Origin: Actibacterium ureilyticum
GTDB taxonomy: Bacteria; Pseudomonadota; Alphaproteobacteria; Rhodobacterales; Rhodobacteraceae
Direction of reading: 5' to 3'
NCBI RefSeq assembly: GCF_002285435.1
Contig: NZ_NSBT01000037.1
Location: 930,001-994,000 of the forward strand
DNA: 64,000 bases
Shown here: one piece after another, positions 34,790-63,064 of the stretch
Layout: every line of letters begins with the position of its first letter
Numbering within the stretch: the first letter of the stretch is position 1
Program-made: the position numbers and the translations under genes
The notes under the pieces: model-generated
Seen by the model: only the letters and a program-made list of their open reading frames with translations
Databases searched by the model: none
What the model was told of the DNA's origin: nothing

Positions 34790-34998
34790 AGATCATGGTT
34801 CGCAAGACCCCCAAGGGCACCGAGGTCTATGTGCCCAAGAAAGACCTGGAAGAGATGGTGGTCGAAACCGAAAAGCCGGGCCTGTGGGGCGGCTGGGCGC
34901 GGCTGTCGAATGGCTGGATGCTGGAAATGCCCGCCTTTCCCGAGCCGCCCAAGATGCCGATCACCGTCGATGCCCGGCGCCTGGCGGATGCGGAGTGA
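34786..34998 (+). CDS. nifT: Nitrogen fixation protein NifT/FixU
   Basis: A 70-aa NifT: MKIMVRKTPKGTEVYVPKKD then LWGGWARLSNGWMLEMP. Function unclear; dispensable in studied strains. ATG overlaps the nifZ stop and AAGGAG lies upstream. Confidence 0.94.
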   Translation: MKIMVRKTPKGTEVYVPKKDLEEMVVETEKPGLWGGWARLSNGWMLEMPAFPEPPKMPITVDARRLADAE

Positions 34999-35003
34999 CG
35001 AAG

Positions 35004-35831
35004 ATGAGCGATATGGACAAGCTGAACGCCGCATTGGATGCCGTCGCCGCAGGCCGGATGATCCCCTATCTCGGGCCCGGCATCGCCGGGTTGAGCGATG
35101 CGGTTCCAGCCTCGCCCGAGGCGCTGTGCGCGCGGATCGAGGCCGAGGTGCGGGTGCCGAAACGGTCCACCGGCAACCTGTGGTCCGCTGCGCAATATGT
35201 CGAAAGCCGCAAGTTTCGCGCCACGCTGGACGACATCATGCACCGCGCCTTTGCCCCCGGGCTGGGACAGGCGAACGCGGTGCACAAGGCGCTGGCGGCC
35301 ATGCGCCCGCCGATGATCGTCGACACCTGGTATGACGACGGGATGCTGGCGGCGCTTGACGGGCAATCCGGCTGGGGCTGGGTTCAGGGCGTCAGCCGCA
35401 ATGGCGAATGGATCGAGATCTGGACCCGAACCTATGCCCCCGACGGGACCGAACGCGCCGAAGGCCCCGACAGCGGCTGGGAAACGCTGGTCTACAAACC
35501 GCACGGCATGGCGCGCAAGGGGTCGAGTTTTCTGATGTCGGACAGCGACTATGTCGAGGTCCTGACAGAGATCGACATCCAGACCCCGATCCCGGACGAG
35601 GTCCGCACCCGCCGCACCGACCGCGGCTTTCTGTTCCTGGGCTGCCGGTTCGACGACCAGATGCTGCGCATCTTCGCGCGCCAGATCGCCAAGCGGTCGG
35701 GCGGCCAGCATGTCGCGGTGATCGAGGGCGAGCTGACCCGGATGGAACGGAAATTCCTGGACGAGCTGAACATCACCCGGCTGGACCTGCCGGTATCGGC
35801 CATCACGGACGCGCTGGCCGCCACGGTCTGA
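35004..35831 (+). CDS. Nif-associated SIR2-like domain protein
   Basis: A 275-aa protein of the SIR2-like group found between nifT and nifH in several diazotrophs. The region around GRMIPYLGPGIAGLS resembles the nucleotide-binding start of the SIR2-like fold. Later hydrophobic strand GFLFLGCRFDDQMLRIFARQ is the C-terminal SIR2-like signature ('FxG-S/C-x-x-D'). The classical catalytic His of sirtuins is not evident. Likely NAD or nucleotide-binding; no function known. Stop overlaps the next start as TGATG. Confidence 0.75.
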   Translation: MSDMDKLNAALDAVAAGRMIPYLGPGIAGLSDAVPASPEALCARIEAEVRVPKRSTGNLWSAAQYVESRKFRATLDDIMHRAFAPGLGQANAVHKALAAMRPPMIVDTWYDDGMLAALDGQSGWGWVQGVSRNGEWIEIWTRTYAPDGTERAEGPDSGWETLVYKPHGMARKGSSFLMSDSDYVEVLTEIDIQTPIPDEVRTRRTDRGFLFLGCRFDDQMLRIFARQIAKRSGGQHVAVIEGELTRMERKFLDELNITRLDLPVSAITDALAATV

Positions 35832-54842: not shown

Positions 54843-54858
54843 TGTCGTTTTCACGACA
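54843..54858 (+). promoter_or_regulatory. NifA upstream activator sequence of the 2Fe-2S ferredoxin gene
   Basis: TGTCGTTTTCACGACA, perfect TGT-N10-ACA, begins right after the rpoN stop and lies about 50 bases before the -24 element. Confidence 0.9.
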
Positions 54859-54897
54859 GTTGCCCCCGCAACCGCACGCGGGGGCGGGCGATGCGGG

Positions 54898-54912
54898 TGG
54901 CACGGGCCTTGC
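54898..54912 (+). promoter_or_regulatory. Sigma-54 promoter of the 2Fe-2S ferredoxin gene
   Basis: TGGCACGGGCCTTGC, consensus spacing. Confidence 0.92.
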
Positions 54913-55010
54913 TTCACTATCAACAGGCAGAGGCGCAGTTGCCTGGAACCCGAAACCCGTGGGTGGGCCGTTCGGCCAGCCCCCAAACCTGTCCGAAAGG
55001 AGCCATGAGG

Positions 55011-55379
55011 ATGGCAAATATCACGTTCACCTCGCCGGTGATGCACCGGGACAAGACGATCTATGCGGTGGCTGGCGACACCAAGACGATCCTGGCGCTG
55101 GCCGATGAGCACCAGATCCCGATCCCCTTTGAATGCCGCGACGGGAATTGCGGCTCGTGCCTGATCGAGGTCACATATCTGGAAGACAAGCCCAAGATGG
55201 GCATGGCCCTGACCGAAAAGGAAAAGGCGCGGCTGAAAGAGCTGCAATTGCTGAGCAGCGCCGATATCGAGGAGGCCGAGGTCAACGACATGCCGCCGCG
55301 CTTTCGGCTGGCCTGTCAGTTCATCGCCCGGCACGAGGATGTGCGCATCAGCTTTACCGGAACGCCCGGCGGGTCGTGA
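55011..55379 (+). CDS. Plant-type [2Fe-2S] ferredoxin, nif-regulated (FdxD-like)
   Basis: A 122-aa ferredoxin with C-x4-C-x2-C-xn-C in PFECRDGNCGSCLIEV and FRLACQF. The 54-residue insert between third and fourth Cys (LTEKEKARLKELQLLSS) is a distinctive lysine/glutamate-rich helix. It resembles Rhodobacter FdxD. Start at 55011 has AAAGGAG at 8 bases; ATG at 55005 is also in frame. Monocistronic under its own sigma-54 promoter. Confidence 0.85.
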   Translation: MANITFTSPVMHRDKTIYAVAGDTKTILALADEHQIPIPFECRDGNCGSCLIEVTYLEDKPKMGMALTEKEKARLKELQLLSSADIEEAEVNDMPPRFRLACQFIARHEDVRISFTGTPGGS

Positions 55380-55437: not shown

Positions 55438-56460
55438 TCAGGCGGACAGGACCGCCGCCACGGCCCGGCCCTGTGCGCGGGCGGCGGCAGTGGTGCGCGT
55501 TGCGCCCTTGCGCGCGTCCCCCAGCACCATCGTCTGTGGCCGCAGCCGGGACCGATGGGCATCGTCGCAGGGACACCAGCCGCTGTCATCGGTCAGCCCG
55601 GCCAGCCGCGCCAGATCGCCCGCCTGCTGCGGCACGATGAAATTGACCGCATCGGCGCGGATCTCTCCGGCATCGGTGCCCAGCACCCCCCGCGCGGTAT
55701 TGACCCACAGCACCCCGCCCCCGGCACCCGGACCCCGCCAGTCGACCGGAATCGGCACCTCCGCCCCGGCAAGGTGCGCGTCATAAAGCGCCGCTGCCTG
55801 CGATTGCCGCGCGCCATCCAGTACCGTCAGCCGCGCATCGGGGCGATGGTCCCGCAGGTATCGCGCCAGCGCCCGGGCACGGTCGGCGGCAATCGCCGGA
55901 TATCCACCGCCGTCGGCGGGCAGGCGCAGCACCACATGCGCGGATGCGGGCAGCGCGCCCAGTTGCGCCAGCAGGCGCCGCGCCGCGCGCGGGCTGCCCC
56001 AGGCGGCGGGCCAATGGTGCGCGGCGGCGGCGTCATAGCCCGCGATCCCCTCGTCCCTTGGGGCGGTGCCGGGGGCCAGCACCAGCCGGCCAAAGGGCAG
56101 CGTGCGGCCGCTGAAGAGTTCGACCCGCCCGGCCCGCCAATCGACCCCAACCGCGTCGTCCAGCACCAGATCGACCCCCGCCGCGCGCAGGCGCCGGTGA
56201 TCGGGTCCACCCGCCGGGCGCGTGAACCCCTGCAGCGCGGTCTCGACGGGCCGCAGCCGGGTCGGGTCTCGCTCGACCAGGATCACGGGCCGGTCGGGCG
56301 CCGCGCGGCGCAGCGTCAGCGCGGCGCGCGCACCTGCCGGACCGCCGCCGACGACGATCACCGGCTCGGCCCGCGCGCGCGGGCCAATCAGCCCAGCCGC
56401 GCCCAGCGCCGTGGCACCGCCCAGCGCGGTATGAAGGAAATGACGACGTGTCAGCATCAT
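55438..56460 (-). CDS. Tat-exported FAD-dependent oxidoreductase (flavocytochrome-c sulfide dehydrogenase-like)
   Basis: A 340-aa flavoprotein. N-terminal Tat signal RRHFLHTALGG followed by hydrophobic segment and GPRARA cleavage site. Dinucleotide fold VIVVGGGPAGARAALTLRRA and a distal FAD-binding QTMVLGDARKGATR, like FccB/SoxF/sulfide:quinone enzymes. It is shorter than FccB. Its own sigma-54 promoter and NifA site lie upstream, so it belongs to the nif regulon. Physiological role unknown; possibly a periplasmic electron donor or acceptor to Rnf. Confidence 0.8.
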   Translation of the reverse strand: MMLTRRHFLHTALGGATALGAAGLIGPRARAEPVIVVGGGPAGARAALTLRRAAPDRPVILVERDPTRLRPVETALQGFTRPAGGPDHRRLRAAGVDLVLDDAVGVDWRAGRVELFSGRTLPFGRLVLAPGTAPRDEGIAGYDAAAAHHWPAAWGSPRAARRLLAQLGALPASAHVVLRLPADGGGYPAIAADRARALARYLRDHRPDARLTVLDGARQSQAAALYDAHLAGAEVPIPVDWRGPGAGGGVLWVNTARGVLGTDAGEIRADAVNFIVPQQAGDLARLAGLTDDSGWCPCDDAHRSRLRPQTMVLGDARKGATRTTAAARAQGRAVAAVLSA

Positions 56461-56530
56461 GTGCCTGGCCCCTTTTCTCATATCCAGTCCCGGGACCGGC
56501 CCTACAGCGGCCCGTTCCCTGTTTTCCGAA

Positions 56531-56545
56531 GCAAGATCCGCGCCA
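56531..56545 (-). promoter_or_regulatory. Sigma-54 promoter of the exported flavoprotein gene
   Basis: Minus strand TGGCGCGGATCTTGC with consensus GG/GC spacing. It is about 70 bases before the flavoprotein start and inside the gap after apbE. Confidence 0.7.
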
Positions 56546-56554
56546 ACCGTCGCC

Positions 56555-56570
56555 TGTCGGCAATCCGACA
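56555..56570 (-). promoter_or_regulatory. NifA upstream activator sequence close to the flavoprotein promoter
   Basis: TGTCGGATTGCCGACA on the minus strand, a perfect TGT-N10-ACA. Its centre lies only about 20 bases ahead of the -24 element, much closer than at the other promoters. Confidence 0.7.
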
Positions 56571-56574
56571 CAGG

Positions 56575-57663
56575 TCAGTTCAGCGCGGCGGGATGCAGCA
56601 CCCGCAGCACCGGCCGCCGCCCCCCGCCGGTTGGCGGCAAAAGCTCCAGCCGCGCCGCCATCTCCGGTGTCGCCAGCATCTGGCCGCTGTCGTCGATCAG
56701 CAGAACCTGATCCAGCCCCATCGCCTGTGCGATCTCTGCCCAGTGATCCGGTCCCGCCACGCTCAGCGCCGTGGCCCCAGCATCAGCGCGGGCACCATCG
56801 CGCGCCACCACCGTGGCCGACACGATTCCGCGCACGGGCCAGCCGGTGCGTGGGTCGATGATATGCGAAAACCGCACCCCGTCGCCTTGCAGGAAACGCT
56901 CGTAATTGCCCGAGGTATAGACGCCCTCGCCCGGTTCCACCGACAGCGCCGCCACCGCGCCCCACCCCTGCGGGTCGCGGATCGCCACGCGCCAGGGCCG
57001 GTCGCCATGGCGGCCGATCACCTGCAAGTCGCCACCGGCATTCAGCACCGCATTGTCGATGCCCAGTGCGATCAGCCTTTGCACCGCCAGATCCAGCGCG
57101 GCGCCCTTGGCATAGCCGCCCAGATCGAGTTGTACCGCCGGGTTGCGCGACGTGACCACGTGGCCATCGAAACGCAGATCCGCAATGCGCGGACGGGCCG
57201 CCACAAGCCGGTCGATCTGTTGGGGATCGGGCATCGGTCCCTGCGGCGGCAGGTCGTCGTGAAACCCCCAGAGCGCGACCAGCCCCCCGATCGCGGGATC
57301 GAACGTGCCCCGGCTTTCGCGCGAAAGCGCCTGCCCCTGTTTCAGCACCTGCAACAGCGGATCGGACACCGCCATGCCCTGCCCCCTGGCCAGCGCCGCG
57401 TTCAGCCGCGTCAGCTCGCCCGGTCGCCAGGCATGCCAGTCGCGGTGAAGCCGGCGAAAGTCGCCCTCAAGCATCGACATGGCGGCGCGGGCGCGGGGTT
57501 CGGGGGTGTCGCGGATCACGACCTCGACCAGCGTCCCGAACAGATAGAACGTCTGGGACAAGCCGTCATCGGGGGCGGCCTGGCGCGGGTCACGCGCCCA
57601 GAGGCCAAGCGCCAGCACCAGCGCCGCAAGCGCGCCGGGCACAAGACGCCGCGCGGGCGTCAC
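56575..57663 (-). CDS. rnfF: FAD:protein FMN transferase (ApbE/RnfF)
   Basis: A 362-aa periplasmic ApbE-family enzyme that attaches FMN to threonine of Rnf subunits. N-terminal hydrophobic anchor LVPGALAALVLALGLW, and the ApbE core LFGTLVEVVIRDTPEPRARA, DLGGYAKGAALD, NAGGDLQVIGRHG and HIIDPRTGWP. GTG start overlaps the RseC-like stop by four bases. Context (rnf, fdxC) supports RnfF. Confidence 0.88.
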   Translation of the reverse strand: MTPARRLVPGALAALVLALGLWARDPRQAAPDDGLSQTFYLFGTLVEVVIRDTPEPRARAAMSMLEGDFRRLHRDWHAWRPGELTRLNAALARGQGMAVSDPLLQVLKQGQALSRESRGTFDPAIGGLVALWGFHDDLPPQGPMPDPQQIDRLVAARPRIADLRFDGHVVTSRNPAVQLDLGGYAKGAALDLAVQRLIALGIDNAVLNAGGDLQVIGRHGDRPWRVAIRDPQGWGAVAALSVEPGEGVYTSGNYERFLQGDGVRFSHIIDPRTGWPVRGIVSATVVARDGARADAGATALSVAGPDHWAEIAQAMGLDQVLLIDDSGQMLATPEMAARLELLPPTGGGRRPVLRVLHPAALN

Positions 57664-58109
57664 GGCGCCGTGTCCGCAGGTTCCAGCCACAGCACGGGCG
57701 CGCGCCCCGCCCGCCGGTCGGCCCGCCGCAACGGCACAAAGGACACCGCCAGCGCCGGGACGCAGATCACTGCCGTCGCCAGATCCGACAGGCCAAGCGC
57801 GGCGCAAACCGACGCGGCACCGGCCAGGGCCACGGGCGGGATCAGATAGGCCCGCAGCGCCGCGCCCAGGAACACGTCCCGTTCCATCGCCACGGTCACA
57901 TCCGTACCAGCCGTCAGCGGCGCGTCACCGGGCAGGCTCAGATCGCGATCCGTGCCCAGCAATTGCGCCAGCGCCGCCGCCCCGCACCCGGCCCGGGCCG
58001 CACAGGCCGCGCAGCCCGCATCGCGTTCCAGACGCAGCGCGGCCCGGCCATCGTCCAGCGCCACGACCTGCAACCGTTGGCGCAGCGCCGTGTCCGCAGG
58101 CCCGGTCAT
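57660..58109 (-). CDS. RseC/RnfE-like SoxR-reducing-system protein
   Basis: A 149-aa membrane protein: RDAGCAACAARAGCGAAALA carries four Cys of the RseC family and two later transmembrane helices (LIPPVALAGAASVCAALGL, LATAVICVPALAVSFVPL). RseC-like proteins assist assembly of Rnf/Rsx. It overlaps fdxN by four bases and precedes apbE. Confidence 0.85.
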   Translation of the reverse strand: MTGPADTALRQRLQVVALDDGRAALRLERDAGCAACAARAGCGAAALAQLLGTDRDLSLPGDAPLTAGTDVTVAMERDVFLGAALRAYLIPPVALAGAASVCAALGLSDLATAVICVPALAVSFVPLRRADRRAGRAPVLWLEPADTAP

Positions 58110-58303
58110 TCCGCCGGGATGATGCACCCGTCCTCCAGGCACACGCTCAGGCATTGCGGCATGTCGTGATCGGGTTCGCATTCGGTGCAGATGTCGGCCT
58201 TGATGAAGAACACGCCCTTTTGGGGAATGATCGCCCCGGTGGGGCAGACCGGTTCGCAATCCCCGCAAGAGGTGCACAGATCCGCCACTATTTGCATTGC
58301 CAT
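58106..58303 (-). CDS. fdxN: 2[4Fe-4S] ferredoxin FdxN
   Basis: A 65-aa ferredoxin with LCTSCGDCEPVCP and ICTECEPDHDMPQCLSVC, the latter with the C-x2-C-x8-C-x3-C spacing. In Rhodobacter this is the main electron donor to NifH, made from Rnf-reduced pools. AAAGGAAAT upstream. A second FdxN-like protein is at 33540. Confidence 0.93.
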   Translation of the reverse strand: MAMQIVADLCTSCGDCEPVCPTGAIIPQKGVFFIKADICTECEPDHDMPQCLSVCLEDGCIIPAE

Positions 58304-58374: not shown

Positions 58375-58689
<315 letters not shown>

Positions 58690-59988
58690 TCACAGATCGG
58701 CGAAGTCGACCTCGCGCGGTTGCATGCGGCCGGTCAGATGCGCCGCCAGACGGCGGCCGAAGTCCCGGCAATCTTCCAGTTCGGCATCGGTCGGGTGCAG
58801 CTTGATCTTCAGCCCCTTTTCCGGCACCCGCATCTTCAGCCCCTGCAGGCGCCCCTCGACCATCTGCACCGCCTCGCCGGTCCAGCCATAAGAGCCAAAG
58901 GCCGCGCCAAGCTTGCCCTTGGTGTCGATATCGACCAGCCCCGCCAGCAGGTCCCAGACCGTCTTGACCGCATCGCCGTTGATGGTGGGCGAGCCGAAGA
59001 CCAGCGCATCGGCTTCCTCGATCAGGTCGACAAAGGGCGTGAACTCGCCGATCTGCAGATCGAAGAGCGAGGCGCGCACATCGGGATTTTCCGCCGCCCC
59101 CTCATAGATCGCGCCGGCCATCATCGACGTCGCGCCATAGGCGCTGACATAAAAGATCAGCAGGGTCTTCTGATCGCCCACCTCGCTGGCCAGGCGCGAT
59201 TTCACCAACCGGCGGTAATGGGTGATGTACTGGCGCGGATGCGCGCGCAGGATCGGTCCGTGGCTGGGGGCGATCATGGCGATGTCCAGAGGCTCGATCA
59301 GGTCCAGCGCCGCGACGACATAGGCCTTGAAGGGCCGCATGATGTGTTCGAAGTAATATTCGAACGAAAACCGGAAATCGCCGACCCGGTCGTTGAACAG
59401 CCGCGCATCGCAGAAATGGCAGCCAAACAGGTCGCAGGTGAACAAAAGCCGCTGATCCTGAAGATGCGTGCATTGCGTATCGGGCCAATGGACATAGGGC
59501 GTGGTCAGGAACCGCAGCGTCTGATCGCCCAGCGAAACCGTATCGCCGGTGCGCACGATCCGCACCGCATAATCGTCGAACCTGTCCTTCAGCAAGGCGC
59601 GTAGAACCTGTACCCCGCGCGGCGATACGCAGATTTCCAGATGCGGGGCGCGGCGCAGCAATTCGGGCACCGCGCCGGTGTGGTCGGGCTCCAGATGGTT
59701 CAGCACCAGGGTGGTCAGTTCGTCATAGCGCGCCACCGCCTCCAGCCGTTTCAGGAAGGGTTCGGTGAATTCCTGTTTGACCGTGTCGATGACCGCGACG
59801 CCGGTGCTGCCGCGCACGACATAGGCATTATAGCTGGTCCCGTTGGCGGTGCGCAGGATGATGTCGAAATTGCGCAGATCGGGGTCCAGCGCGCCGACCC
59901 AATGCACACGGTCGGCCACGGGCACCGGCTGCATCGCATCCGCGGCACCGGCCATCTGTGGCAGGTCGAGTGTTGCACGTGGGGTCAC
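58690..59988 (-). CDS. Flavodiiron protein (FprA-type A flavoprotein)
   Basis: A 432-aa protein: metallo-beta-lactamase-like diiron domain (about 1-260) with ligands [11 protein letters not shown] (H-x-E-x-D-H), [12 protein letters not shown] and [10 protein letters not shown], then a C-terminal flavodoxin domain ([30 protein letters not shown]). Such proteins reduce O2 or NO. GTG start at 59988 follows CAGGAG; a much longer upstream frame is non-coding. First gene of the minus operon. O2 scavenging for nitrogenase is inferred. Confidence 0.92.
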
Positions 59989-60053
59989 CGAAAGCTCCTG
60001 CAGCGTGGTCTTGGCCCGGAGCCGCCGTGGCGCCCCGGGTCGATGCAGGTGAA

Positions 60054-60068
60054 GCAACCCGCGTGCCA
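60054..60068 (-). promoter_or_regulatory. Sigma-54 promoter of the flavodiiron/fdxC/fdxN operon
   Basis: Minus strand TGGCACGCGGGTTGC, consensus spacing. The 369-base divergent gap 59989-60357 holds this promoter, the rnfA promoter and the candidate NifA sites. Confidence 0.92.
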
Positions 60069-60168
60069 AGCGCCGGACCCCGCGAGGCCGCCCCGCCCCA
60101 GCGGTCAATCGGGGCTGGATCGCGCGCGTTGCGCGCCCGGTCCGCCTGGATGCGACATCGGCCCGACA

Positions 60169-60184
60169 ATTGTCGCAAAACCGA
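60169..60184. promoter_or_regulatory. Candidate shared NifA site in the divergent rnf/fdx region
   Basis: TGTCGCAAAACCGACC, 5 of 6 match to TGT-N10-ACA. It lies about 100-110 bases from both divergent -24 elements, so it could serve both. Confidence 0.5.
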
Positions 60185-60263
60185 CCTTGCCCTGCCCCGG
60201 CAGGACACCCCGTGCAAGACCGACGCGCCCCTTGGCACATGAGAGCCGCCCGGCGCCACCCGT

Positions 60264-60279
60264 GTCGGCAAGCCAACAT
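60264..60279 (+). promoter_or_regulatory. NifA-like site abutting the rnfA promoter
   Basis: TGTCGGCAAGCCAACA, a perfect TGT-N10-ACA match, ends at the first base of the -24 element of rnfA. So close a position would be unusual for NifA activation. Confidence 0.5.
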
Positions 60280-60293
60280 GGCATGGCGCTTGC
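60279..60293 (+). promoter_or_regulatory. Sigma-54 promoter of rnfABCD
   Basis: TGGCATGGCGCTTGC with consensus spacing (TGGCATG in place of TGGCACG). rnfA starts 65 bases downstream. Confidence 0.88.
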
Positions 60294-60357
60294 TTCAACA
60301 TCGCCAAGCCCGGGGCGCCGTCCCCGGCCCCGAAGCCACACGCGGCGGAGCAATTCG

Positions 60358-60939
60358 ATGCAAGACTATCTGGTCATCCTGCTGAGCACGGCATTGGTCA
60401 ACAATGTGGTCCTGGTGAAATTCCTGGGGCTCTGCCCGTTCATGGGCGTGTCGCGCAAGACCGATGCGGCGCTTGGGATGGGCTTTGCCACCACATTCGT
60501 CCTGACCCTGGCCGCCGCCGCCAGCTGGTGTGTCGAAACGCTGTTGCTGGTGCCGCTGGGGCTGGAATTCCTGCGCATCCTGTCCTTCATCCTGGTGATT
60601 GCCGGGATCGTGCAGTTCACCGAAGCCGCCATCCGCAAGATCTCGCCCACGCTTTATCGGGCGCTGGGGATCTATCTGCCGCTGATCACCACCAATTGCG
60701 CGGTGCTGGGCGTGGCGCTGCTGAACATCCAACAGGGCCATTCCTTTGCCGAAAGCCTGCTTTACGGGTTCGGATCGGCGGCGGGCTTCACGCTGGTGCT
60801 GGTGATCTTTGCCGGGCTGCGGGAACGCCTGGCGCGTCTGGATGTGCCCGCCCCGTTCCAGGGCGCCCCCATCGCCTTTGTCACCGCTGGCCTGCTGTCC
60901 ATGGCGTTCATGGGCTTTGCGGGGCTGGTAAGCCAATGA
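60358..60939 (+). CDS. rnfA: Rnf electron transport complex subunit A
   Basis: A 193-aa membrane subunit with six helices. Conserved [18 protein letters not shown] and [14 protein letters not shown] each carry a Cys; paired Cys coordinate an inter-membrane iron. AGCGGAG-like site upstream. First gene of the rnf operon driven by sigma-54. Confidence 0.97.
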
Positions 60940-60955
60940 CCGGAAAGGACAGACC

Positions 60956-61504
60956 ATGATCGAGGCCGTCGCGACGATGTCCGCCCTGGGGCTGGGGCTG
61001 GGAACCATCCTGGGGGTGGCCGCGCGGCGGTTTCACGTCGAAACGCCGCCCATCGTCGACGAGATCGAGGCCCAGTTGCCCGGCACGAATTGCGGCCAAT
61101 GCGGCTTTCCGGGGTGCCGGGGCGCGGCCGAGGCGGTGGCCGAAGGCGCCGCGCCCGTCACCCTGTGCCCGCCCGGCGGGCGCGAGGTCGCCGTGACTCT
61201 GGCCGAGATCACCGGCGCCGAACCGCCTGGCAGCGGCGGCACGGGGCAGGATGCCGAGCCGGTCGTGGCGTTCATCTTCGAGGATCACTGCACCGGCTGC
61301 ACCAAATGCTTCAAGCGCTGCCCGACCGACGCGATCATCGGGGCCGCCAAGCAGATTCATACCGTGGTCAACGACGCCTGTATCGGCTGCGACGCCTGTG
61401 TCGCGGTCTGCCCGACCGAGGCGATCATCCTGCGCACCAAGCCGCGCACCTTGCGCAACTGGCACTGGCCCAAGCCCGGCACCCCCGCCGATGCCACGCT
61501 GTAA
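60956..61504 (+). CDS. rnfB: Rnf electron transport complex subunit B
   Basis: A 182-aa Fe-S subunit. An N-terminal membrane anchor, then the four-Cys motif in PGTNCGQCGFPGCRGAA, then two 4Fe-4S motifs CTGCTKCFKRCPTDAI and CIGCDACVAVCPTEAI. It receives electrons from RnfC. GGAAAGGA precedes the start. Confidence 0.97.
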   Translation: MIEAVATMSALGLGLGTILGVAARRFHVETPPIVDEIEAQLPGTNCGQCGFPGCRGAAEAVAEGAAPVTLCPPGGREVAVTLAEITGAEPPGSGGTGQDAEPVVAFIFEDHCTGCTKCFKRCPTDAIIGAAKQIHTVVNDACIGCDACVAVCPTEAIILRTKPRTLRNWHWPKPGTPADATL

Positions 61505-61516
61505 CGAGGCCCGCCC

Positions 61517-63064
61517 ATGTCCCTGATTTCGCTTTCCGCCCTCAGACGCACCGCCGGGGCCTTTGCCGGGCGGGGCGGCATCCACCCCGAAACCCGCAAA
61601 TACCTGTCCGCCGACAGCCCGATCGAAGCGATGCCGCTGCCGTCGATCCTGCGGGTGCCGTTGCAACAGCACATCGGGGCCGAGGCCGTACCGGTTGTCG
61701 CACGCGGCGACCAGGTGCTGAAAGGGCAGCTGATCGGCAAGGCGCGCGGGCCGGTATCGGCCAATGTGCACGCCCCGACCTCGGGCAAGGTAATCGCGGT
61801 GGGCTATTTCGCGGCGCCGCACCCGTCGGGGCTGCCGGTGTCGACGATCACGATCCGCCCCGATGGCGCGGACCGCTGGGGCGCGCGCCTGCCGCGTCTG
61901 GTGCCCGAACAGGCGACACCGGACGAGATCGCGGATCATGTGAAACAGGCCGGGATCGTCGGCATGGGCGGGGCGACGTTTCCTTCGGCGGTCAAGCTGG
62001 ACCTGCGCAAGCGTTTCGCCCTGAAGACGCTGATCATCAACGGCGCGGAATGCGAACCCTATCTGACCTGCGACGACCGGTTGATGCGCGAGTTTTCCGA
62101 AGAGCTCGCCGATGGCATCGCGATCATGGCCCGCGCGCTGGGTGTAGAGCAGGTGATCGTCGCCATCGAATCCAACAAACCGCAGGCGATCGAGGCGATG
62201 CAGCGCCGTATGCTGGCCATCGGCTGCCCGGCGCGGGTGACCCGGGTGCCGACGCTCTATCCCATGGGGTCGGAAAAGCATCTGGTGCAGGCCGTTACCG
62301 GTCTGGAAACCCCCGCCCGCGCGCTGACGGCGGAACTGGGCGTCGTGGTGCATAACGCGGCCACGGCCTATGCGGTGCATCTGGCGTTGCGCTATGGCGA
62401 GCCGCTGATCTCGCGCGTGTTGACGGTGTCGGGCTTCGGCGTGACCCGCCCGGCGAATGTAAAGGTTCTGATCGGCACGCTGGTGGCGGAAATCCTGGAC
62501 CATTGCGGCGGGCTGGATGGCACGCCCGACCGGCTGTTGCTGGGCGGGCCGATGATGGGTCTGCCGATCCGCAGCCAGCGTGTGCCGGTGATCAAGGGCA
62601 CGAACGGCATCCTGGCCCTGCAGAAATCGGAAACCCGGCGGCACCGGGAAATGCCCTGTATCCGCTGCGGTGGCTGCATCAAGGTCTGCCCCTGCGGGCT
62701 GATGCCGATGGAAATGCACGGGATGATTCAGGCGGGCGATCTGGACAAGGCCGTCGATATCGGCCTGCTGGATTGCGTGGCCTGCGGGTCGTGCTCGTTC
62801 AACTGCCCGTCGAACATCCAGCTTGTGCAAAGCTTCAACTATGCCAAGGGGCGGCTGGCCTTTCAGCAGAGCCAGAAGCACCAGCAGGAGGAAACCAAGC
62901 GCCTGGCCGAAACCCGCAAGGCGCGCATGGATGCCATCGCCGAGGCCAAGCGCCAGGCGATGGCCCGCCGCAAGGCCGAGATGGCCGCACGCAAGAAGCG
63001 CGAGGCTGAAACCGAAACGCCCGCCGTCCCGGCCCCGGCTCCCACCGCCGAGCGCACCGGATGA
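61517..63064 (+). CDS. rnfC: Rnf electron transport complex subunit C
   Basis: A 515-aa peripheral subunit with NADH/FMN and Fe-S sites. It shows GGATFPSAVKL, NGAECEPYLTCDD, two 4Fe-4S motifs (IRCGGCIKVCPCGL, VACGSCSFNCPSNI) and a C-terminal Ala/Lys/Arg-rich coiled coil (about 445-505). Overlaps rnfD by four bases (ATGA). Confidence 0.96.
   Translation: MSLISLSALRRTAGAFAGRGGIHPETRKYLSADSPIEAMPLPSILRVPLQQHIGAEAVPVVARGDQVLKGQLIGKARGPVSANVHAPTSGKVIAVGYFAAPHPSGLPVSTITIRPDGADRWGARLPRLVPEQATPDEIADHVKQAGIVGMGGATFPSAVKLDLRKRFALKTLIINGAECEPYLTCDDRLMREFSEELADGIAIMARALGVEQVIVAIESNKPQAIEAMQRRMLAIGCPARVTRVPTLYPMGSEKHLVQAVTGLETPARALTAELGVVVHNAATAYAVHLALRYGEPLISRVLTVSGFGVTRPANVKVLIGTLVAEILDHCGGLDGTPDRLLLGGPMMGLPIRSQRVPVIKGTNGILALQKSETRRHREMPCIRCGGCIKVCPCGLMPMEMHGMIQAGDLDKAVDIGLLDCVACGSCSFNCPSNIQLVQSFNYAKGRLAFQQSQKHQQEETKRLAETRKARMDAIAEAKRQAMARRKAEMAARKKREAETETPAVPAPAPTAERTG

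Follow-up and report, generated by a model that had tools for sequence, protein, structure and literature searches.

What does a predicted exported FAD protein do when its gene lies among genes for nitrogenase and for the Rnf complex? The question is raised by a gene in the 64,000-nucleotide stretch of Actibacterium ureilyticum DNA analyzed here (the window), which had been predicted to encode a Tat-exported, FccB-like flavoprotein co-induced with nitrogenase. We use FADp as a working name for this Rnf-linked FAD protein. By sequence and fold, FADp descends from FccB/SoxF, the flavoprotein of flavocytochrome c sulfide dehydrogenase (FCSD), yet it fails the tests for an FCSD. In purple bacteria and their relatives, it accompanies the Rnf electron pump and control signals of nitrogen fixation instead. 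It is probably an uncharacterized helper of nitrogenase electron supply.

The FADp gene and its surroundings

The window carries a nif cluster with nifHDKENX, nifUS, nifA, nifB and a linked rpoN, named from their translations. The features around the FADp gene are as follows.

55438–56460, minus strand: FADp coding sequence, 340 residues, ATG at 56460, TGA at 55440–55438
56368–56460, minus strand: twin-arginine N-terminus of FADp, residues 1–31 (TRRHFL ... RARA)
56530–56545, minus strand: sigma-54 -24/-12 promoter TGGCGCGGATCTTGCT, one mismatch to TGGCACG-N4-TTGCW
56555–56570, minus strand: NifA-type UAS TGTCGGATTGCCGACA (TGTCGG-ATTG-CCGACA), a perfect TGT-N10-ACA with fully palindromic arms
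56575–57663, minus strand: apbE, flavin transferase family (PF02424, 237 bits); the GTG start at 57663 is approximate and inferred
57660–58109, minus strand: rseC-like gene (PF04246), start approximate
58106–58300, minus strand: 4Fe-4S-type ferredoxin in the fdxN position, cysteine motifs read by eye, start approximate
58375–58662, minus strand: 2Fe-2S ferredoxin in the fdxC position
58690–60279, minus strand: frame of an fprA-like flavodiiron protein (PF19583, PF00258), with the true start somewhere inside it
60263–60278, no strand assigned: TGT-N10-ACA site lying between fprA and rnfA and directly next to the -24 element of rnfA
60279–60294, plus strand: sigma-54 site of rnfA TGGCATGGCGCTTGCT
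60358–60939, plus strand: rnfA, named by reading
60956–61504, plus strand: rnfB, named by reading
61517–63064, plus strand: rnfC

The predicted upstream series of apbE, rseC-like gene, 4Fe ferredoxin, 2Fe ferredoxin and fprA is borne out, the order of transcription being fprA, fdxC, fdxN, rseC-like gene, apbE, FADp. The rnfABC genes are divergent; rnfG, rnfE and rnfH follow rnfC past the window end, in the overlapping locus L070. We take rnfF to be the R. capsulatus name of apbE. Tail to tail with the FADp gene, a 2Fe-2S ferredoxin gene (54843–55379) adjoins the nif-linked rpoN and has its own sigma-54 site and UAS, 39 bp apart. Elsewhere in the nif cluster, the ORF at 34884–35831 resembles, by eye, a SIR2-family protein with the R. 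capsulatus counterpart Rcc03262, listed as not found without NifA in a table of PMC6925177.

We set the FADp start at ATG 56460. The mechanical ORF list had GTG 56571, which would swallow the promoter; hence the interval of the original prediction (55438–56570) corresponds to the coding sequence plus the promoter. The N-terminus contains the twin-arginine motif MMLTRRHFLHTALGG...RARA. R5 and R6 are invariant in 27 aligned FADp sequences, window included, and the pattern is matched in 31 of 32 FADp rows, L068 missing it through the choice of a later Met as start. Signal cleavage would occur after A31, and an uncleaved membrane anchor is possible. FADp would be a periplasmic protein with non-covalently bound FAD. 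Twin-arginine N-termini also occur in FccB, for instance in the FccB of the same genome (L002).

FADp proteins measure 314–345 residues (median 338.5, the minimum of 314 coming from a row whose start was called too late) as compared to 406–434 residues (median 421) for FccB, a difference of about 80 residues. The genome holds no second FADp copy, apart from an FccB paralogue with 31% identity.

Genomic company and control signals

Close relatives of FADp are rare in the family. Among 295 family genomes, own genome included, only three others have one (284–300 bits, 51–56% identity), and the next best match scores 148 bits. A scan of named genomes with the single FADp sequence gave no match; with a 4-sequence FADp alignment, it gave at least 26 loci. 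These include two R. capsulatus strains, R. viridis, R. aestuarii, Cereibacter ovatus and three Rhodovulum, as well as Salipiger, Tropicimonas, Rhodothalassium and Filomicrobium. Plasmids gave no FADp match at 1e-20.

Gene order was compared in 32 genomes, namely the 26 listed ones plus the window, G051, G497, G547, G548 and G550; the count omits L033, L034 and L072, whose contigs match those of L042, L050 and L056 in length. Among the matches listed, FADp directly follows rnfH of the rnf operon, recognized by genes other than rnfD, in 23 of the 32 genomes, R. capsulatus included, so that the link to Rnf and ApbE is stronger than originally claimed. At the 20 loci measured, the gap from rnfH to FADp is 14–78 bp (median 39.5). 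Nine genomes fall outside this order. In six of them FADp follows apbE: the window, Tropicimonas (L035), Poseidonocella (L051), Mangrovicoccus (L053), G547 (L073) and G548 (L074). The three others are L041, whose piece has no other match, L058 and L060. In L058 (Filomicrobium), FADp is not beside rnf, and RnfC lies on the same contig more than 10 kb away. There (L058:9087–12089), FADp is part of a nif island that contains iscN-nifU-nifS, and the next genes are peroxiredoxin-like and Bfd-like, the names being given partly by reading. In L060 (Salipiger thiooxidans), the nif and rnf matches are split into several pieces, which suggests frameshifts, sequencing errors or cluster decay.

Co-occurrence points the same way. 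Of 390 genomes drawn from the order, 8 have FADp and 14 have NifD, all 8 being among the 14. A nif-type RnfE (at least 343 bits) is found in exactly the 8 NifD genomes with FADp, and the 6 others have no RnfE match at 1e-20, the RnfE search having covered 16 of the 390 genomes. A ninth order match, in G050 (177 bits), groups among FccB in the tree. Across 385 genomes of the class, FADp is present in the own genome, with a more distant relative (279 bits) in G587; the remaining class matches, at most 216 bits, were read as FccB. At E 1e-55, RnfE is found in the own genome, G628 and G877. The latter two, Rnf-bearing alphaproteobacteria outside the order, have no FADp at E 1e-50, so Rnf can probably work without FADp. 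In G587, apbE is followed at L112:2067–5532 by an FADp-like gene, an RnfB-like gene and one that resembles pyruvate:ferredoxin oxidoreductase, the last named by reading; this order is unusual. This genome has no RnfC match at 1e-30, which suggests that a link of FADp to ApbE and RnfB can exist without a full Rnf complex. Overall, FADp is linked to, and co-occurs with, nif-type Rnf, with G587, G628, G877 and Filomicrobium as exceptions. The genome-level link between FADp and Rnf is real; taken together, the order and class results tie FADp to nif-type Rnf within the order, yet FADp is not universal to Rnf.

The sigma-54 consensus is TGGCACG-N4-TTGCW; the sites were read against it, the NifA consensus and the norms of UAS spacing. 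In the window, the UAS and sigma-54 element of FADp both lie 3' of the apbE stop. They are 9 bp apart, an atypical spacing between a UAS and a -24 element; elsewhere in the window, five more UAS/sigma-54 pairs have gaps of 0 (rnfA), 39, 50, 65 and 194 bp. The gap of 0 at rnfA (60263–60294) is as odd as the 9-bp gap at 56545–56570. TGT-N10-ACA occurs 8 times in the window (4.8 expected; at least 8 in 10 of 100 shuffles) and is, alone, weak evidence above chance. Sigma-54-like patterns number 17 (6.6 expected), a count reached in none of 100 shuffles. With a stricter score, 9 sites are found in the 64 kb window, 8 of them inside its nif/rnf part. This score and its cut-offs are our own, and the same cut-off was applied to both groups of loci compared below.

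Within 250 bp upstream of FADp, a sigma-54 site is found at 6/6 loci where FADp follows apbE and a TGT-N10-ACA UAS at 4/6, versus 0/20 and 0/20 at the loci where it follows rnfH. Dinucleotide shuffles of the six apbE-FADp upstream regions gave means of 0.006 sigma-54 sites and 0.018 UAS per locus. The contrast has a Fisher p of 4e-6, computed as if the loci were independent, with near copies (L055/L057, L044/L046) among them; the six apbE-FADp loci form about two lineages, which leaves a small number of independent events behind the contrast. The comparison comprised 23 listed loci plus the window, L073 and L074. It left out L041 (damaged 5' end), L058 (no rnf within 10 kb) and L060 (broken frames), as well as L032, L071 and L075, all of the rnfH-FADp order. 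Hence, an own promoter is seen only where FADp lies outside the rnf operon. The gap from UAS to -24 is 42 bp in L051, 41 bp in L053 and 68–73 bp in L073, where two sites overlap.

The rnf operon carries signals of the same type. Within 700 bp upstream of rnfA, a sigma-54 site is found at 16/18 loci and a UAS at 18/18. In R. capsulatus DSM 1710 (L057), the rnfA region has the UAS TGTCGGGAATCCGACA, of the form TGTCGG-N4-CCGACA as in the window. According to passages of PMC6925177, expression of rnfA-lacZ and fprA-lacZ in R. capsulatus drops strongly when NifA is missing. Of 124 loci, only 6 contain the exact palindrome CGACAATTGTCG, one of them being L070, which overlaps the window; it lies either in the fprA-rnfA region (window, at 60164–60175, L035, L073, L074) or upstream of FADp (L051, L053). 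This palindrome could be a set of arrayed NifA half-sites or the site of another regulator.

The window FADp gene thus has the combination by which membership of the NifA/RpoN regulon was judged, a sigma-54 promoter with an upstream NifA-type site. The promoter and perfect TGT-N10-ACA of the original prediction are present, with a sigma-54 element at all six apbE-FADp loci, and the relatives strengthen its claim on regulation. Its further statement, that they are direct sequence evidence of co-induction with nitrogenase, is overstated: the comparative promoter evidence is good, but the perfect UAS is missing in 2 of the 6 promoters and the UAS spacing in the window is unusual.

FADp compared with FCSD, and the label of rcc03294

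The FccB-like character of FADp is well founded. The protein matches PDB 5n1t at E 1e-37, and its AlphaFold model, built from 27 sequences (mean pLDDT 85), matches FccB over residues 31–340; a model from 4 sequences (pLDDT 53.6) was left unused. Against three FCSD structures (1fcd, 3vrd, 5n1t), Z is 29.0–30.7 with 30–34% identity. The best of these is 5n1t (301 residues aligned at rmsd 2.4, Z 30.7), and with 1fcd (Z 29.0) the alignment runs up to residue 321 of 401. PF07992 is found in 27/27 FADp members and PF21706 (FCSD_central) in 26/27, the window protein scoring 30.4 against a cut-off of 27 bits. G38/G40/G43, E63, A129/G131 and G314/D315, which match FAD-binding motifs and presumably have that role, are invariant in the 27 sequences, in agreement with the predicted FAD protein. 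Sulfide:quinone oxidoreductase and NDH-2 share the two-dinucleotide-fold superfamily with FADp (Z 21.7–24.3 among the matches listed), but at 12–20% identity.

In FCSD, Cys42 (1fcd numbering) binds FAD covalently, and Cys161 and Cys337 form a redox disulfide. Cys42 is present in 45/45 FccB rows and 0/32 FADp rows. The same counts hold for Cys161, replaced by His in 26/32 FADp rows, and for a conserved C-terminal Cys, which we take to be Cys337. PF09242 is absent from the 19 families matched by the 27 FADp members at E 0.01, while the FccB of the own genome, on another contig, has it at 79 bits. A coding-like CXXCH cytochrome ORF within 1.5 kb is found at 0/25 FADp loci versus 25/27 FccB loci. 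As for the samples, the 32 FADp rows include the window protein and the identical pairs L004/L042 and L056/L065, and the 45 FccB rows the identical pair L008/L069. The latter are the best-scoring family, order and class matches plus the own paralogue, hence not a neutral sample. L012 was dropped as broken, and L091 (G587), kept apart from both groups, carries P, Y and a gap in place of the three cysteines. By reading, the own FccB gene adjoins a c-type cytochrome gene and a thioredoxin-like gene.

In a quick tree that includes two FccB rows read on the wrong strand (L006, L103), 43 FccB rows and 1fcd are set apart from every FADp row with full SH-aLRT support; the branch uniting FADp as one group has a support of only 21. 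Two other candidate features were rejected. A redox CXC motif (WCPC) does not hold, the second Cys being T, V or A in 9/32 rows. FADp as an ApbE substrate was discarded as well, the target motif [ST]GA[ST] given in passages of PMC8238504 occurring in only 3/32 rows.

FADp thus shares the fold, the FAD-binding motifs and the central domain of FccB/SoxF but has none of the three cysteines, no PF09242 match and no cytochrome partner, and lies in an Rnf/nif context instead. With these missing, FADp was rejected as an FCSD/SoxF. The profile comparison with FCSD/SoxF families, proposed as a check, gave the central domain without PF09242, and the predicted shorter length fits the measured medians. 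The suggestion that FADp handles sulfide finds no support, every FCSD-defining residue, domain and partner tested being absent; sulfide oxidation by FADp is disfavored.

This bears on R. capsulatus. According to passages of PMC6925177, rnfA is rcc03287 and RnfG is Rcc03291, so the gene after rnfH is, by numbering, rcc03294. The gene directly after rnfH in the two R. capsulatus loci L055 and L057 is FADp, and rcc03294 is presumed to be its ortholog. These R. capsulatus proteins are 46–47% identical to the window FADp, and their genes have no own sigma-54 site within 250 bp upstream. In PMC9995734, as far as its passages go, rcc03294 is named "a putative FCSD", and SqrR is stated not to control the FCSD gene. 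The gene differs from window FADp in lying directly after rnfH, not after apbE, and its residues do not back the printed label. The two draft R. capsulatus genomes have no FccB match at 1e-20, as is the case for Rhodothalassium. R. viridis and Alloyangia have only a weak FccB match, located at the FADp gene itself, and a strong one (at least 328 bits) is found in 9 of the 14 genomes searched. The evidence, which is that of sequence comparison, says that rcc03294 would be an Rnf-linked protein instead of an FCSD, and argues against counting it as FCSD evidence in R. capsulatus.

The main text of PMC6925177 does not mention rcc03294, and the available passages of open-licence papers, including PMC4014512, PMC12174285, PMC12052999 and PMC4999443, describe no Rnf role for FADp. 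As the original prediction stated that no such enzyme is a standard part of the N2-fixation chain, it agrees with these literature passages, whose named electron-chain proteins do not include FADp. FADp shares gene clusters and control-site type with the Rnf complex (rnfABCDGEH with ApbE/RnfF and RseC); however, it is not among the subunits named in the literature passages and is not found with some Rnf clusters.

Possible roles at the Rnf complex

It is very probable, judging from sequence, that FADp is not an FCSD, that it belongs with nif-type Rnf in the order, and that it is under NifA/sigma-54-type control signals, either directly or apparently via the rnf operon. What it does there is more tentative. 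Our order of preference puts electron exchange with RnfG before FAD supply to ApbE, followed by another periplasmic redox task and, last, FCSD.

In the reading that we rank first, FADp would be an accessory of the nif-type Rnf complex that binds FAD and is exported by a Tat-type route. In evolving from FccB/SoxF, it would have lost its cytochrome partner and its C-terminal domain, along with the covalent-FAD Cys and the redox disulfide. Its FAD would be held non-covalently, and probably be more exposed after loss of the C-terminal domain. FADp would dock on the periplasmic face of Rnf and trade electrons with the FMN of RnfG, and this exchange could tune or feed the reverse flow of electrons to ferredoxin that serves nitrogenase. 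In the own genome and in R. capsulatus DSM 1710, no FMN_bind protein other than RnfG was found; RnfG or ApbE would therefore be the natural flavoprotein partner outside the cytoplasm, if there is one. FADp also has (near-)invariant, group-specific arginines at positions 68, 112, 119, 158, 161, 162, 179 and 317, and arginines 210 and 322 are mostly Lys in FccB. As a speculation, the group-specific arginines could bind a phosphate or an acidic partner. Against electron exchange, FADp keeps no redox partner motif besides FAD. That FADp acts as a periplasmic Rnf accessory exchanging electrons with the FMN of RnfG thus comes close to an even prospect, without quite reaching it.

Several of these observations can be read in another way. 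FADp might fold with FAD in the cytoplasm, be exported by Tat and hand a dissociable FAD to ApbE (RnfF), which would then attach FMN to RnfG and RnfD. The loss of the covalent-FAD Cys42 with retention of the FAD-binding motifs would suit such a carrier, as would a protein without evident substrate or electron partner whose gene follows apbE at six loci (window included), with an FADp-like gene placed likewise in G587. In addition, the position of FADp alternates between two Rnf-building operons, a shift to be expected of a maturation factor no less than of a subunit. However, at most loci FADp follows rnfH and apbE belongs to the divergent operon, spending an FAD on every protein exported is costly, and of two Rnf clusters outside the order that have no FADp, one has an apbE-like gene. 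We know of no precedent for this role and consider it rather unlikely. Still less likely is that FADp serves diazotrophic cells in some other periplasmic redox role, such as thiol, quinone, oxygen or peroxide chemistry, and is merely co-regulated with Rnf. The invariant WCP Cys (32/32 FADp rows) and the peroxiredoxin-like gene, named by reading, after FADp in the Filomicrobium nif island would favor it, together with PrxS (Rcc03281), which passages of PMC6925177 place within the R. capsulatus fprA-rnfF operon. Yet the same Cys is present in 28/45 FccB rows and hence is not a new active site, and in the 14 NifD-bearing genomes FADp tracks nif-type RnfE, not nif alone (8/8 vs 0/6).

That FADp is an FCSD flavoprotein (FccB/SoxF), the function under which rcc03294 is named in PMC9995734, has clear homology on its side. 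Given the cysteines, domain and cytochrome gene that are missing and, from the same passages, the absence of SqrR control, it is highly improbable.

To our knowledge, events at the periplasmic side of Rnf, and the source of FAD for ApbE there, are poorly known. The classic R. capsulatus rnf operon may have an eighth functional gene, whose product, a flavoprotein exported by Tat, would give Rnf a periplasmic port, either flavin-to-flavin to RnfG or as an FAD carrier for ApbE; we put this forward as a plausible proposal on which doubt still weighs somewhat more than belief. If true, either port, electron route or FAD carrier, would be a new element of nitrogenase electron supply in an organism where Rnf is a key electron route to nitrogenase, as stated in passages of PMC10936413. 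The function of FADp can be tested directly in R. capsulatus. As a conserved flavoprotein that accompanies nif-type Rnf, FADp offers a handle, rcc03294 in a model diazotroph, on the periplasmic side of Rnf and on the source of FAD for ApbE there.
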